Shown here: positions 5,675 to 32,605 of the stretch, one piece after another | Numbering within the stretch: position 1 is the first letter of the stretch | Layout of the letters: each line of letters starts with the position of its first letter | Assembly: GCF_001953305.1 (NCBI RefSeq) | Contig: NZ_MTFE01000010.1 | Location: forward strand, 2,357,826 to 2,390,475 | Length of the DNA stretch: 32,650 bases | Direction of reading: 5' to 3' | Origin: Cnuella takakiae | Lineage (GTDB): Bacteria > Bacteroidota > Bacteroidia > Chitinophagales > Chitinophagaceae | Notes under the pieces: model-generated | Database searches by the model: none | The model's input: the letters and a program-made list of their open reading frames with translations, nothing else | Told to the model about the DNA's origin: nothing | Program-made: the position numbers and the translations under genes

Positions 5675-5840
5675 GGCGATGAGTTATGAGTAAACAGTGA
5701 TGAATAAGGCCAAAGGAATTATGAGGGATGAGTTGGGGTTTGTAAAAGGTGGGGGGGCGATACCATAGATGCACTCACCACTTAATATTTACTATTCACT
5801 ATTCGTTACGCATCACTGATCATTCATGACTCATCACGCC
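5675..5840. repeat. Word-type inverted repeat, GATGAGT vocabulary
   Basis: The left arm (5675-5707) is made of variants of GATGAGT/TATGAGT/GTGATGAAT. The right arm (about 5791-5840) carries the reverse-complement words (CACTATTC, ATCACTGATCATTC, ATGACTCATCACGCC). GGCGATGAGT at 5675 pairs with ACTCATCACGCC at 5829 with a two-base offset. About 85 unrelated nucleotides lie between, including a G-run. The right arm reaches the stop codon of the thioredoxin-like gene. No coding sequence is seen inside. Confidence 0.65.
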
Positions 5841-5844
5841 TCAC

Positions 5845-6341: not shown

Positions 6342-6496
6342 GGATGAATGTGAAAATGTGAAAATAGCGAAATGTAACAATGGCCACTTAACTATTGAGT
6401 GTTGTACGAAAAATGCAGGTAATTGTAAAAATGCACTGATGCTGCACTTGGGAAAACTCATTTTCAAATTTTCAAATTTTCACATTTGCTCATTCC
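6342..6496. repeat. Word-type inverted repeat, GAAAATGTGAAAAT vocabulary
   Basis: The left arm (6342-6374) reads GGATGAATGTGAAAATGTGA and continues with GAAAATAGCGAAATG. The right arm (6459-6496) holds the reverse complement words TTTTCAAATTTTCA, TTTTCACATTTGC and TCATTCC. The 84-nt spacer carries no gene. The repeat lies between the start of the thioredoxin-like gene and the efp promoter, so unlike most other copies it is not at a gene's 3' end. Confidence 0.6.
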
Positions 6497-7307: not shown

Positions 7308-7793
7308 ATGGATTTCAAGCAAATACAGGAGTTGATCCAACTCGTTAACGACTCCAACCTGGGAGAAGTTTCCATCGAGCAAAAGGATTTCAAGATCACC
7401 ATCAAGCAGAAGGAAGAACACGTAACCCAGGTGGTGGCTTCTATGCAAGGCGCACCCGCACTGCCCCAACAGGCTTATGCACCCGCCGCACTGCCCCAGG
7501 CAGCTCCAGCCGCTGCTGCACCTGCAGCACCCGCAGCCGAATCCAACAGCAATCTTATTACCATCAAGAGCCCGATGATCGGTACTTTCTACCGCCGTCC
7601 TTCTCCCGACAAACCCAACTTCCTGGAAGTGGGCGATGACGTAACTACCGGTAAAGTGGTGTGCATCATTGAGGCCATGAAGCTCTTCAACGAAATCGAA
7701 AGCGAAGTTTCCGGCAAAGTGGTGAAAATCCTGGTTCAGGATGCATCGCCCGTGGAGTACGACCAGCCGCTGTTTTTGGTGGAGCCCGCATAA
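7308..7793 (+). CDS. accB: Biotin carboxyl carrier protein of acetyl-CoA carboxylase
   Basis: The 161-residue carrier subunit shuttles carboxyl-biotin between AccC and the carboxyltransferase in the first step of fatty-acid synthesis. Its N-terminal domain (1-45, MDFKQIQELIQLVNDSNL) is followed by an Ala/Pro-rich flexible linker (about 48-78) and a biotinyl domain (about 82-161). Biotin attaches at Lys125 in EAMKLFNEIE, the Bacteroidota variant of EAMKM. A TTG three codons upstream (7299) is in frame, but the ATG at 7308 matches the family start. No terminator lies between this gene and the inserted cassette before accC, so read-through to accC is possible. Confidence 0.95.
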   Translation: MDFKQIQELIQLVNDSNLGEVSIEQKDFKITIKQKEEHVTQVVASMQGAPALPQQAYAPAALPQAAPAAAAPAAPAAESNSNLITIKSPMIGTFYRRPSPDKPNFLEVGDDVTTGKVVCIIEAMKLFNEIESEVSGKVVKILVQDASPVEYDQPLFLVEPA

Positions 7794-7802
7794 AGCAGGA
7801 AA

Positions 7803-7847
7803 GTTAATTAGCTAATTAGCCAATGTGCTGATGTGCTAATTGACGAT
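7803..7847. repeat. Left inverted repeat of four-helix-bundle cassette
   Basis: The arm carries TAATTAGCTAATTAGC, then CAATGTGCTGATGTGCTAAT. It is the imperfect reverse complement of the arm at 8278-8315: both share TAATTAGCTAATT and ATGTGCTAA. It begins 10 nt after the accB stop codon. Confidence 0.7.
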
Positions 7848-7848
7848 T

Positions 7849-7884
7849 ACAGGTGGTTTTGTATTTTCTGGCAAAACCACCTGT
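7849..7884 (+). promoter_or_regulatory. Perfect 13-bp hairpin directly before the four-helix-bundle start
   Basis: ACAGGTGGTTTTG (7849-7861) and CAAAACCACCTGT (7872-7884) are perfect complements around a 10-nt loop. The second arm ends one base before the ATG at 7886, so the folded RNA would cover the ribosome-binding region. It could be a protein-binding site or a translational control; no T-tract follows, so it is not a normal terminator. Confidence 0.6.
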
Positions 7885-7885
7885 A

Positions 7886-8236
7886 ATGATTGAAGATGAA
7901 ATCAGGGCCAATCCATTGCTTCGTTTATCCATTAACTTCTCCATACTGGTAATACAATATTGCGAAGTGTTGGATCAAAACCGTAAGCATGTGATTGGTA
8001 AACAACTTTTGCGTGCCGCCACTTCCATAGGTGCAAATGCCATGGAAGCACAAAATGCTGAAAGTAAGGCTGATTTCATTCATAAAATGAAAGTAGCCGG
8101 CAAAGAAGCAGATGAAACCCAATACTGGCTGATCCTCTGCAAGCATGCTAAAAGCTATCCTGATTGCTCCCATTTGTTTCCAAAGCTTGAGGAATTGCAG
8201 AAAATATTGAATGCAATACTGGGTTCTTCAAAATGA
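7886..8236 (+). CDS. Four-helix-bundle protein (23S rRNA intervening-sequence family)
   Basis: The 116-residue product reads NPLLRLSINFSILVIQYCEV, then KQLLRAATSIGANAMEAQNA, and KMKVAGKEADETQYWL. These match the four-helix-bundle family first described from open reading frames in 23S rRNA intervening sequences and related to diversity-generating-retroelement Avd proteins. The biochemical role is unsettled; related proteins are small, basic and bind nucleic acid. Upstream in-frame codons from 7853 exist, but they lie inside the hairpin and the ATG at 7886 (MIEDEIRANP) fits the family start. The gene sits between accB and accC and is flanked by inverted arms (7803-7847 and 8278-8315), which suggests insertion as a cassette. 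Confidence 0.88.
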   Translation: MIEDEIRANPLLRLSINFSILVIQYCEVLDQNRKHVIGKQLLRAATSIGANAMEAQNAESKADFIHKMKVAGKEADETQYWLILCKHAKSYPDCSHLFPKLEELQKILNAILGSSK

Positions 8237-8277
8237 AACTTTGAAACAAGTTTTTGAAAAGCTTGTGTGGCTGTTTT

Positions 8278-8315
8278 TAGCACATTAGCATATTATCAAA
8301 TTAGCTAATTAGCTT
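8278..8315. repeat. Right inverted repeat of four-helix-bundle cassette
   Basis: The arm reads TAGCACATTAGCATATTATC, then AAATTAGCTAATTAGC. Its reverse complement matches the left arm at 7803-7847. It ends 9 nt before the accC ATG, so the cassette fills almost the whole accB-accC gap. Confidence 0.7.
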
Positions 8316-8324
8316 CTTATCCTC

Positions 8325-9662
<1,338 letters not shown>

Positions 9663-23600: not shown

Positions 23601-24412
23601 AGATGCGTGCAATACAGCTAGGGCGAACCAACGAAGAAATTGTTTGGAACCGCAAGGACGAAATAGGTGAACTGGTGGTGCAATACAACAAGATGGTGCA
23701 CCAGTTGGAAGCTTCTGCGGCTGCACTTGCCAAAAGCGAAAGGGAAGGGGCCTGGCGTGAGATGGCACGGCAGGTGGCCCATGAAATCAAGAACCCGCTA
23801 ACCCCCATGAAGCTTAGCATCCAGTACCTGCAAAAAGCCATCAACAGCGACCAGCCCAATGTACAGGAGCTAACCGAACGGGTAGCCGGTACCCTGGTAG
23901 AACAGATCGATCACCTGTCGAAGATCGCAGCCGATTTCTCGCGCTTTGCCAATATTGGCAACCAGCAGGTAGAGCGTTTTGACCTGCACGATGTGTTGGA
24001 ATCGGTAGTGCAGTTGTACCGTGCCAATCCAAAGCTCAAATTGCTGTGGCGACCTGTACCCGCACCTGTTTGGATAGATGCCGACAAGACGCATATCAAC
24101 CGCCTTTTTGCCAACCTCTTTTCAAATGCGGTGGAAGCCTGCAACAGCAATGAGGAATGCATCATCAAACTGGAAGAAGCTCTGGAAGAAAATAAAATAT
24201 TGATTCGCGTAAAAGACAATGGCGAGGGCATCCCGGTGGGGATGCAGGACAAAATCTTTGTACCCAATTTTACTACCAAGAGTTCAGGTACCGGTTTGGG
24301 ACTTGCCATGAGCAAGGGCATTGTAGAGCAAGCCGGTGGCCGCATCTGGTTTGAAACAGGCGAAGGTGCAGGAACTACTTTCTTTGTGGAGTTGCCTATG
24401 TCTGATTACTGA
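20651..24412 (+). CDS. Large polytopic sensor histidine kinase (NtrY-like)
   Basis: The 1253-residue product has a first membrane helix at about 13-33 and an extracytoplasmic region (34-215). A block of about eight helices follows (219-481), with a second extracytoplasmic region (485-725) and helices at about 727-750 and 773-795. A third sensor region (800-945) precedes the last helix (946-971) and a HAMP domain (972-1025). The catalytic core has the phospho-acceptor His1044 (ARQVAHEIKNPLTPMKLS), an N-box (NLFSNAVEAC, 1155-1164), G1 (DNGEGIP) and G2 (SGTGLGLAM). VAHEIKNPLTP is typical of NtrY-like kinases. The start is TTG at 20651: the next ATG would remove the first helix. No response regulator is next to it. 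Word-repeat sequence reaches its last codons. Confidence 0.93.
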   Translation: MTAPNFRKLIPKHSLLLSALLLLGISFVTGFLFRSSPVANLEEKALERYLHRQEADFNKFLTDTPMLRRLVQQNEPFKNFEQLTARKYGIYLYAETLFGQDLIFWNSNQVMPDSQALKAPEGVFFQRFSNGYYVVRKQNLQLPGMTNRVQAYALIPIYYLHNNRSRYLTTRFAHDEHAHQKINLSMEQTPFAVASLDKKPLFYILRKPYTPTPSADTLSFLLRMTALLLFAIYLHLIAEGVVRRKGALRGVGLLVGSLLVLRVLVFLLPEFFHVQQFRLFSPGVYGSNWLHPTLGDLLLNAAVFCWMVLFAWYQTGAVKHLPGWLHGKRKYFAGGLALFVLILATFQMADVVRTLVSDSTISFQVNDFFTLDSFTVVGFVVLALLSLGYYYFSRLLFRFIFPAFEKRFYLIYFIIGLAGLLYLSLLTGNPIVLFQIPVLLWLLVYTFLVCQQQFIINRFRITLAGVLFWIFVFSASLSLIVLQENRIKEEQWKTKLAEQQDQKSDPSQERTLSIGLIYLDNEFFLKNFDRFRQPASNRLLRDSITRENSFTTYLKAYATQLYVFDSAQNGLFNDDGKTFAELNNVYTNRSKPTQITNLYYHEPSYDQVIYLTKREVQDSGRNVGTVFIVSTPTNFTGETFLPELFSNVGRNDIESSPVYAYAVYQKGILQSQQTKYPFKTSLTYRDVPTQSFETRSNGEYDELWYKVSGTKIVVITKKRDRFLESITLFSYLFCSFLFMVALLHLLALLLRAAYGWKIVSLFSEISIRSQVHGTIIFVSLLSFLIIGAATITFFVQRYNRNNIDKISRTSGIVMREMQNRIRNLGSLQNAFTVGDSAASQDLQRLVNEVAQIHFLDVNLYDVQGELRYSSIEEVYKRGVLSTKMQPLAFYHLNRMRQAQFVQEEDISELKYLSYYAAVQEPESGEVLAYLNIPYFTSQIDLQQEISNFLVTIINLNAFIFLISGIIALFITNRITRSFSVIGDKMRAIQLGRTNEEIVWNRKDEIGELVVQYNKMVHQLEASAAALAKSEREGAWREMARQVAHEIKNPLTPMKLSIQYLQKAINSDQPNVQELTERVAGTLVEQIDHLSKIAADFSRFANIGNQQVERFDLHDVLESVVQLYRANPKLKLLWRPVPAPVWIDADKTHINRLFANLFSNAVEACNSNEECIIKLEEALEENKILIRVKDNGEGIPVGMQDKIFVPNFTTKSSGTGLGLAMSKGIVEQAGGRIWFETGEGAGTTFFVELPMSDY

Positions 24413-24442
24413 TTACTCATCACTTATCATTCACCACTCACT
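24403..24442. repeat. Lone word-type arm at convergent gene ends
   Basis: The words GATTACTGATTACTCATCAC, then TTATCATTCACCACTCACTTCC, match the GATGAGT/TGATGA vocabulary (reverse orientation) of the 5675 and 16392 repeats, but no partner arm is present. It spans the stop codons of both the histidine kinase and the PolX-like gene. Confidence 0.55.
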
Positions 24443-26273: not shown

Positions 26274-26615
26274 TTACTTCGAACCCTTTCCAGCCTTTGC
26301 TTTAGCAGCAGTGGCTTTCTTAGCGGGAGCAGCCTTTTTTGCTACTGCCTTTTTAGCAGGCGCAGCTTTCTTAGCGGCGGCCTTCTTTACAGGGGCAGCT
26401 TTTTTGGCTACGGTCTTTTTAGCAGCAGCTTTTTTAGCAGGAGCAGCAGCCTTTTTGGCTACCGTCTTCTTAGCAGCGGCTTTCTTGGCGGGAGCAGCTT
26501 TTTTAGCTACGGTTTTCTTAGCGGCGGCTTTCTTTGCAGGAGCAGCAGCCTTCTTAGCCGTAGCTTTTTTTGCGGGTGCAGCTTTCTTAGCCGCAGCCTT
26601 TTTTGCAGTTGCCAT
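26274..26615 (-). CDS. Lysine/alanine-rich histone-H1-like protein
   Basis: The 113-residue product is almost only Lys, Ala, Pro, Val and Thr, built from AAKKAAPAKKA-type units. The longer unit AAAKKTVAKKAAPAKK recurs three times, with or without one extra Ala. Such H1 C-terminal-like proteins bind DNA non-specifically and compact nucleoids; the specific function in Bacteroidota is unproven. No folded domain is seen and the protein is disordered by composition. The start ATG gives MATAKKAAAKK. It is separated from rpmA by a long terminator and has its own terminator, so it is probably a single-gene unit. The repeats make copy-number change and sequencing error likely. Confidence 0.88.
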   Translation of the reverse strand: MATAKKAAAKKAAPAKKATAKKAAAPAKKAAAKKTVAKKAAPAKKAAAKKTVAKKAAAPAKKAAAKKTVAKKAAPVKKAAAKKAAPAKKAVAKKAAPAKKATAAKAKAGKGSK

Positions 26616-32233: not shown

Positions 32234-32602
32234 GGGGGTGTTTGGCTTTGACAGCATAGATCTTTGAGCGTGTAAGCATGTCGAGCGTTGGATAATTAGC
32301 TCGTAAATCTGAATACCCAAACTCTAAATGGCGAATCTAACTTTGCCATGGCTGCCTAATCAGTGATTAAGTAGTCATTAGGGCCGCCGCACAGGTTTGC
32401 CTTTTACCAAGTGCCGCCGCCGACTCAAAACAAATAAAGGTTGCTGCAAGGGAAGGCTGTGACCCTTGCTTAAGACCATCCAGCTAAGTATTGCATTGGT
32501 TTGTTCCGTTCCTGTGCAGTGCCGACAAACAATTCGGAAATAAACATGTAGAAAGCGTTTGAATATCATGTTTGGACAGCGGTTCGACTCCGCTCACCTC
32601 CA
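32234..32602 (+). ncRNA. ssrA: Transfer-messenger RNA (tmRNA)
   Basis: The 5' end GGGGGTG pairs with CACCTCC at the 3' end (7 bp, one G-U) to form the tRNA-like acceptor; the discriminator base is A at 32602 and CCA is not encoded. The T-arm is GCGGTTCGACTCCGC (32580-32594). The 5' part GTTTGGCTTTGACAGCATAG carries the tRNA-like D-loop region. The tag frame starts with GGC at 32330 and reads Gly-Glu-Ser-Asn-Phe-Ala-Met-Ala-Ala, stop TAA at 32357-32359. tmRNA frees stalled ribosomes and marks the peptide for proteolysis. The length of 369 nt is normal. It is one-piece, not circularly permuted. Confidence 0.95.
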
Positions 32603-32605
32603 CTT

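Follow-up and report, generated by a model that had tools for sequence, protein, structure and literature searches.

An IVP/S23 gene between inverted word arrays at accB-accC, and a proposed family of elements in which protein and word are paired

Introduction

Why does a gene of the IVP/S23 (four-helix-bundle) family sit between accB and accC in Cnuella takakiae, enclosed by inverted repeats, and do the gene and the repeats belong together? The locus lies in a stretch of 32,650 nucleotides that was analysed as a whole (the window), from a genome of 5.7 Mb (G000). The literature cited here credits S23/IVP proteins with 'no known function' and leaves the origin of the rRNA intervening sequence unclear (PMC4990558, in part), and it describes no evident mechanism by which intergenic heptamer repeats spread (PMC4679880, in part).

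Gene, arms and hairpin at the accB-accC locus

The locus has the following features, given by their positions in the window.

7326..7793, plus strand: accB, biotin carboxyl carrier protein, left neighbour (TIGR00531, E 1.3e-50)
7801..7839, plus strand: left arm, with 8-nt units AATTAGCT AATTAGCC AATGTGCT GATGTGCT at 7806-7837, ending ..GCTAA
7846..7887, plus strand: hairpin, 16 bp and perfect, with a 10-nt loop; its 3' end runs into the ATG of the IVP gene
7886..8236, plus strand: IVP/S23 gene, 116 aa, 'four helix bundle protein' (PF05635, TIGR02436)
8277..8315, minus strand: right arm, inverted, AATTAGCT AATTTGAT AATATGCT AATGTGCT when read inward (8279-8310)
8325..9662, plus strand: accC, biotin carboxylase, right neighbour (TIGR00514, E 1.1e-219)

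The enclosed gene matched the profiles PF05635 (E 8.9e-20; 71.3 bits versus a curated cut-off of 33.8) and TIGR02436 (E 3.3e-25; 88.4 bits versus a curated cut-off of 24). We took the ATG at 7886 as its start; the open reading frame list starts at an in-frame GTG at 7853. The arms are 39 nt each and 85% complementary, with 437 nt between them; the left arm lies 7 nt past the accB stop and the right arm 9 nt ahead of accC. An earlier note on this DNA had described a four-helix-bundle gene between accB and accC and inverted arms of about 40 nt at its ends, and the profile matches and arm measurements confirm both points. Missing from that note was the tandem structure of the arms. Both are arrays with a period of 8, built from about four units per arm of the word AATnnGCT when read towards the IVP gene. 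No transposase or nuclease was found between the arms, as judged from the open reading frame list and the profile match of the enclosed gene. Rfam matches elsewhere in the window were to tmRNA only, and there was no rRNA around the IVP gene.

The inverted-arm score of the locus was 27. Among 573 random positions, all taken from 432.65 kb of the window's genome, two scored at least 20 and none scored at least 22. These scores, together with the genome-wide word counts below, rule out a lone chance repeat at accB-accC. In the RNA fold calculated for 7794-8324, one arm pairs with the other and the open reading frame lies in the loop. The energy of this fold was -185 kcal/mol versus a mean of -127 for 100 shuffles (z -9.0). 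Lying at the ATG of the IVP gene, the 16-bp hairpin could hide its start codon. Among the 11 loci folded, it was present in the window's genome alone: of the ten relatives, two (L315 and L317) had weaker hairpins of other sequence and the rest had nothing comparable, which rules out a conserved hairpin ahead of the start.

Dispersed copies of the word in the window's genome

The word of the arms recurs throughout the genome. There were 29 occurrences of ATTAGCTAATTAGC and none of its sequence read backwards. Around the matches to ATTAGCTAATTAGC we identified 65 chains of at least three word units, 45 of which had exactly four. Neighbouring chain pairs were convergent in 17 of 26 cases, a count that includes some chains overlapping on both strands, as AATnnGCT is partly palindromic. 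The inner end of the arm, AATGTGCTAA, was kept over 44 arms, and the sequence past AATGTGCTAA was not conserved. The arm size in this word family is near-constant and the family is dispersed. Of the 20 arm pairs measured, 19 were gene-less, with interiors of 17-123 nt, and one, that of the window, carried a gene in an interior of 441 nt.

We compared the variable dinucleotides of 17 arm pairs. The match within elements was not better than that between elements (0.449 vs 0.510), which rules out, for these pairs, a stem maintained by compensatory change. Because the arms of one element are no more complementary at the variable letters than arms taken across elements, recognition of the word is favoured over selection for a perfect stem.

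Further arrays without a gene lie in the window. Each is listed with its best match among the 77 IVP flanks described in the next section.

5782..5844: gene-less array; best match L004 of the window's genome (GAGTGAT word)
6460..6494: gene-less array with the word AATTTGAA, upstream of efp; best match just 14 (L006 of the window's genome)
24402..24441: gene-less array; best match L004 of the window's genome
29168..29235: gene-less inverted array; best match L005 of the window's genome (TTGGGGT word)

In 432.65 kb of this genome there were 20 period-7 arrays, versus none in shuffles; one of the 20-kb samples overlaps the window by about 2.2 kb.

Inverted word arrays at IVP loci

We analysed 77 IVP loci from the window's family: eight from the window's genome, 29 returned by searches and 40 chosen by hand (five IVP-rich genomes; G020) from the rows listed among 186 matches. 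One locus with a short flank (L042) was left out. The inverted-arm score was at least 20 at 52 of the remaining 76 loci and at least 22 at 43 of them; in direct orientation, a score of at least 20 was reached at five. Small genes with intergenic flanks served as controls, and 2 of 87 from five IVP-bearing genomes and 2 of 22 from eight IVP-free genomes scored at least 20. The inverted score alone is unspecific, as 9 of 20 loci with a Y1_Tnp gene reached 20 through palindromes of their own. Arrays on both sides were found at 38 of 76 IVP loci versus 1 of 87 small genes and 0 of 20 Y1_Tnp loci, and at none of the small genes from IVP-free genomes. Scores below 20 were obtained for 24 of the 76 family loci and for 6 of 12 plasmid loci.

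The words at IVP loci have 7-8 letters and differ between copies. Among 100 IVP flanks with an array over threshold, the period was 7 or 14 in 82 and 8, the length of the window's own word, in 13. The window's genome has eight IVP genes, with eight different words as judged by eye. In seven of them the inverted arms reach 20 or more; the remaining one (L003), with a score of 15, has near-palindromic word arrays on both sides. A cassette confined to TAATTAGCTAATT arms is ruled out, since IVP copies have words of their own.

Arrays were also denser where IVP genes occur: 67 in 832.65 kb from five IVP-bearing genomes (at least five of which look like coding repeats by eye) versus 3 in 400 kb from eight IVP-free genomes. 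Among other Bacteroidota, IVP genes were detected in 88 of 118 genomes, and 13 of 30 loci scored at least 20 versus 11 of 300 mismatched arms. In a set of 79 named IVP loci, from which one with a short flank (L252) had been left out, 36 scored at least 22; mismatched arms did so in 10 of 632 cases, and direct orientation gave 14 of 79. More than 100 IVP-related genes that we examined sit between arrays of their own words. This pattern suggests that a type of element has been overlooked, one that matches each protein to a single repeat word.

Protein and word vary together

Similarity between IVP proteins was correlated with similarity between their arms (r 0.21). A correlation as high was obtained in none of 2000 permutations over 2175 non-syntenic pairs from different genomes. 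This test used the 70 of 77 loci with a detectable array; the seven loci with no array were left out. For the 18 pairs with a protein similarity of at least 0.6, the mean arm similarity was 0.50 in the same orientation and 0.23, the background value, in the opposite orientation. By eye, the words within one protein clade have a common core (GTGA, TTAGC/GAGC, GGAC/GTCC, GTTGATnn).

Gene-less arrays were compared with the IVP flanks of their own genome. An own-genome flank was the best match for 27 of 35 arrays in the window's genome (3.6 expected; ties shared) and for 12 of 13 in G020 (0.7 expected). The corresponding counts were 0 of 6 in G004, 1 of 5 in G026 and 1 of 6 in G007 (0.8, 0.8 and 0.6 expected), for which not all IVPs of the genome were included. 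Matching to the own genome was strong, then, in two of the five genomes. In added stretches, 4 of 5 arrays of G020 best matched its own IVPs (three of its four IVPs; one tie), and 0 of 9 arrays of G004, G003 and G026 did so, two of those from G003 being close. Protein is coupled to word, and arm pairs that have the same word but no gene lie scattered between genes.

The accB-accC junction and the clade of the window's protein

In a first sample of 39 relatives, all 28 accB-accC junctions that could be parsed were without a gene, with gaps of 18-211 nt; G012 was unparsed and ten relatives had no such locus. Many of the longer gaps held a gene-less array hairpin, the word of which differed between genera. 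The same-genus genome G004 has accB-accC arms of AATTAGCA/AATGTGCA/AATTTGAA and no gene. Among IVP-free genomes, G002, G034, G035 and G038 had gaps of 18-52 nt with no arrays, and G024 had an array-like gap. By eye, junctions neighbouring accB-accC also carry different words in different genera. The accB-accC junctions of the relatives included no clean empty site, at the nucleotide level, from which a target duplication could be read, and no such duplication was found.

A search with the window's protein gave matches at E 1e-8 in 85 of 147 genomes of the family. Among the best 30 loci of this clade, the window's included, inverted arms scored at least 20 in 23, and about 27 by eye had AATnnGnn words (nnGCT, nnGAT, nnGAA, nnGCA and others). 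Nine of the best 30, from nine genomes including the window's, occupy accB-accC. The other clade loci lie elsewhere, and the clade keeps AATnnGnn arms at several unrelated sites. The neighbours of these other loci, judging from translations, are presumably a succinate-dehydrogenase-like pair, an ATP-synthase pair and others; the word cores of the clade and several of these gene names were read by eye. A summed count of at least 5 for three words of the AATnnGnn class was found in 20 of 35 genomes with a core-clade protein versus 11 of 112 genomes without one (p 3e-8), where the core-clade cut-off (best E up to about 1e-25) was chosen after viewing the list and the word patterns read backwards also match, in five genomes in each of two word counts and strongly in G256. 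Two genomes of one genus, G179 and G249, had 306 and 266 pattern matches to AATnnGAT word pairs and 51 and 29 to AATnnGCT; this abundance is possibly due to a recent expansion.

The IVP protein is under purifying selection. Among six close pairs from the clade, dN/dS was 0.059, 0.075 and 0.102 in three, dS was saturated in two, and one pair was identical. The loci L329 and L330 are identical over the gene.

With the gene at accB-accC in the window's genome and eight others, a fresh insertion at this junction is ruled out and the IVP gene is an old resident; no movement of it was observed. The gene-less arms, changing words and occupied slots across relatives indicate that slot, arms and gene have separate histories. 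The earlier note had proposed a repeat-bounded cassette and had pointed to the accB-accC junction of relatives as a place to look for an empty site. The part of that proposal in which protein and arms belong together stands: 52 of 76 IVP loci have arms, protein and word are coupled, and the clade keeps AATnnGnn at several sites. The idea of a fresh insertion does not, given the nine occupied genomes and a dN/dS of 0.06-0.10 in three close pairs. Relatives in the first sample had the junction without a gene (28 of 28 parsed), many with a gene-less hairpin. A spread of arms with no link to four-helix-bundle genes, which the note had named as speaking against a cassette, was half observed: gene-less pairs of the window's word outnumber the gene-bearing one by 19 to 1, yet the words are statistically tied to IVPs, both within a genome (strongly in two of five) and within a clade.

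Other phyla and a second protein family

Inverted word arms were also found outside the Bacteroidota. Of 28 IVP loci from other phyla, 21 scored at least 22 versus 8 of 224 mismatched arms. These were taken from 30 loci returned, leaving out two partial matches (L394 and L397), and about ten repeat loci of the named or plasmid sets. They come from an archaeon, a Clostridia MAG, Atribacterota, KSB1, a Phycisphaerales MAG, a MAG labelled Limnohabitans (L281 of G264, which may be mis-binned), and plasmids of cyanobacteria and Gemmatimonadota. Twelve of 24 places with plasmid IVP loci were scored; six reached at least 30 and six were at most 17, and one (L338) scored higher in direct than in inverted orientation. 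As a separate observation, IVP genes occur inside CRISPR operons of cyanobacterial plasmids (L338, L341 and L344), twice between cas6 and cas4 and once between cas10 and a cmr3-family gene.

Both of the small control genes that scored at least 20 in IVP-bearing genomes were of the GxxExxY type (PF13366, PDDEXK_3). The GxxExxY genes found between inverted arms are listed here.

L108:3164-3595: in the window's genome
L195:8599-8979: in G007
L404: at this locus
L406: at this locus
L407: at this locus

The genes at L108 and L195 were found through their arms and so provide no independent test. Among plasmid homologues of GxxExxY, inverted arms scored at least 22 in 3 of 4; L405 was without them. 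The words at GxxExxY genes seem to be of 8-9 nt, for example CGCAACGG and CACAGAGGA. On these small numbers, word arms may enclose genes of at least one protein family besides IVP, that of a predicted nuclease.

A proposed element and the alternatives

On balance, and with some reserve, we favour the view that these loci form a family of 'word-arm' elements, in each of which an IVP/S23 gene lies between inverted arrays of a 7- or 8-nt word and the protein recognises that word. Word binding and mobility are what we infer for such an element. The IVP protein would bind the tandem words, in DNA or RNA, and recognition of the word would have spread the arm pairs or would maintain them. The copy with the gene would be autonomous and the short hairpins without one would not, a relation like that of a RAYT to its REPs. 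When transcribed in an operon, the arms would form a stem of the kind seen in 23S rRNA intervening sequences, and intergenic sites, like the tips of rRNA helices, may be places where an insert does little harm. In the crystal, the nearest solved relatives of the IVP protein (2gsc and 2rld) consist of five chains, and the S23 protein of Xanthomonas is described as a toroidal homopentamer (PMC4990558, in part). A protein ring that binds tandem words by its subunits might, as a guess, set the near-constant length of the arrays.

Several other explanations were considered. Each IVP could regulate expression post-transcriptionally by binding its word in many mRNAs, with its own flanks autoregulatory and the arrays acting as regulatory sites between operon genes. 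We hold this to be rather unlikely, although it has points in its favour: many arm pairs lie by eye between operon genes and would fold when transcribed, the IVP protein is under purifying selection, and the TAACTGA heptamers of another group were suggested to act in translation (PMC4679880, in part). A conserved regulon is hard to fit to a junction that has different words, or none, across genera, and the arms form an inverted pair on both sides of the IVP gene, as at the ends of an element. A different history, in which the arrays spread by other means and IVP genes settled in existing hairpin loops, as they do in rRNA loops, would account for the gene-less state of most arm pairs, for the gene-less hairpins in accB-accC of many relatives, and for array words with no obvious IVP of their own, such as AATTTGAA in the window's genome. 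We judge this history improbable, as the protein clade and the word co-vary over genomes and over unrelated sites, the eight IVPs of the window's genome have eight different words by eye, and IVP-free genomes have arrays at about a tenth of the density.

Avd acts with a reverse transcriptase in diversity-generating retroelements, and the IVP fold is kin to that of Avd. An IVP might likewise act with a reverse transcriptase that copies the stem-loop RNA, and the strong fold of the transcribed element is consistent with this. Dependence on a reverse transcriptase of the same genome is ruled out by the window's genome, which has eight IVPs and no RVT_1 match at E 1e-5; reverse transcriptases occurred in 6 of 28 IVP-bearing versus 4 of 12 IVP-free genomes. 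A past enzyme acting in trans is conceivable, and a retroelement partnership as a whole seems to us highly improbable. That the arrays are REPs of a Y1/RAYT transposase, unconnected with the IVP, we find scarcely credible. Y1_Tnp genes were matched in 22 of the 28 genomes with an IVP and in 7 of the 12 without one, and Bacteroidetes TnpA_REP of subclass 2.6 are described as flanked by 'atypical secondary structures' (PMC6006769, in part). However, six IVP-bearing genomes had no Y1_Tnp match, and the 20 Y1_Tnp loci from the same genomes had flanks of another, palindromic kind, none with arrays of period 7 or 8 on both sides. The flanks of these 20 loci rule out the arms as RAYT REPs.

Likeness to known systems

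On the best reading, the proposed word-arm element resembles a REPtron in how it works and a 23S rRNA intervening sequence in how it is built, while being a member of neither group. It shares with the rRNA intervening sequences a protein of the same family inside the loop of a stem with inverted ends. Unlike them, the element in the window lies between the protein genes accB and accC and not inside a 23S rRNA gene, it ends in word arrays, the word is a different one in each copy, and there are dispersed copies with no gene. In the intervening sequence of Coxiella the ends are inverted and three to four heptamers stand in tandem next to the S23 start codon; its authors thought that the S23 protein is not made in vivo (PMC4990558, in part). 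In the part cited, these heptamers are described upstream only, whereas word-arm elements have arrays on both sides (PMC4990558). With REPtrons the likeness is that a gene lies between inverted copies of dispersed intergenic repeats, and that gene and repeat are matched and co-evolve (PMC6006769, in part). The window's gene is similarly flanked by an inverted, dispersed and matched intergenic repeat, the match to the own genome being strong in two of five genomes. In contrast to REPtrons, the enclosed gene is PF05635 and its product is unrelated to the HuH Y1 transposases (PF01797), and the repeats are arrays of 7-8 nt words and not single palindromes.

Intergenic heptamers (Xanthomonas GGGAATC, Nostoc GGGGAYT, Beggiatoaceae TAACTGA) resemble the word arms in being degenerate tandem heptamers, mostly intergenic. 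Those of Nostoc reportedly include few inverted pairs. The GGGAATC heptamers of Xanthomonas mostly have four units and are often convergent, with 70 convergent pairs in one genome (PMC4692102, in part). The same Xanthomonas species encodes an S23 protein, XCC0516. The difference is that these heptamers were described without a protein partner, and the terms 'S23', 'four helix' and 'helix bundle' are absent from the cited parts of PMC4679880 and PMC4692102. Like MITEs and insertion sequences, word-arm elements have short gene-less copies with ends in common with the gene-bearing copy; unlike them, they have no transposase and their ends are tandem words.

In the open-licence literature (that is, outside subscription journals and preprints), we found no report linking S23/IVP proteins with heptamer arrays. 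More broadly, and with about even confidence, we propose that bacterial and archaeal IVP/S23 proteins may be word-specific partners of intergenic heptamer or octamer arrays, which have been described one by one in cyanobacteria, Xanthomonas, Beggiatoaceae and others. Each protein-word pair would be a lineage within a new class of hairpin elements, the rRNA intervening sequences would be members that landed in rRNA, and the GxxExxY nuclease may supply the missing enzyme. A matched pairing of protein and word, if true, would join the puzzles of S23 function, of the origin of rRNA intervening sequences and of the spread of heptamers. It is directly testable, as it involves one small protein and one short repeat, and words can be swapped between proteins.

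Other observations

The Y1_Tnp loci (L349-L368) often have palindromes in their flanks, for example AGCCCGAAGGGCT and CCACGGTTTCAACCGTGG, and represent a separate, RAYT-like repeat system. In the window itself, the tmRNA gene lies at 32234-32605 and encodes the tag peptide GESNFAMAA. An open reading frame at 26274-26615 is made of alanine-lysine repeats (AAKKAAPAKK), which we take to be histone-H1-like in look.
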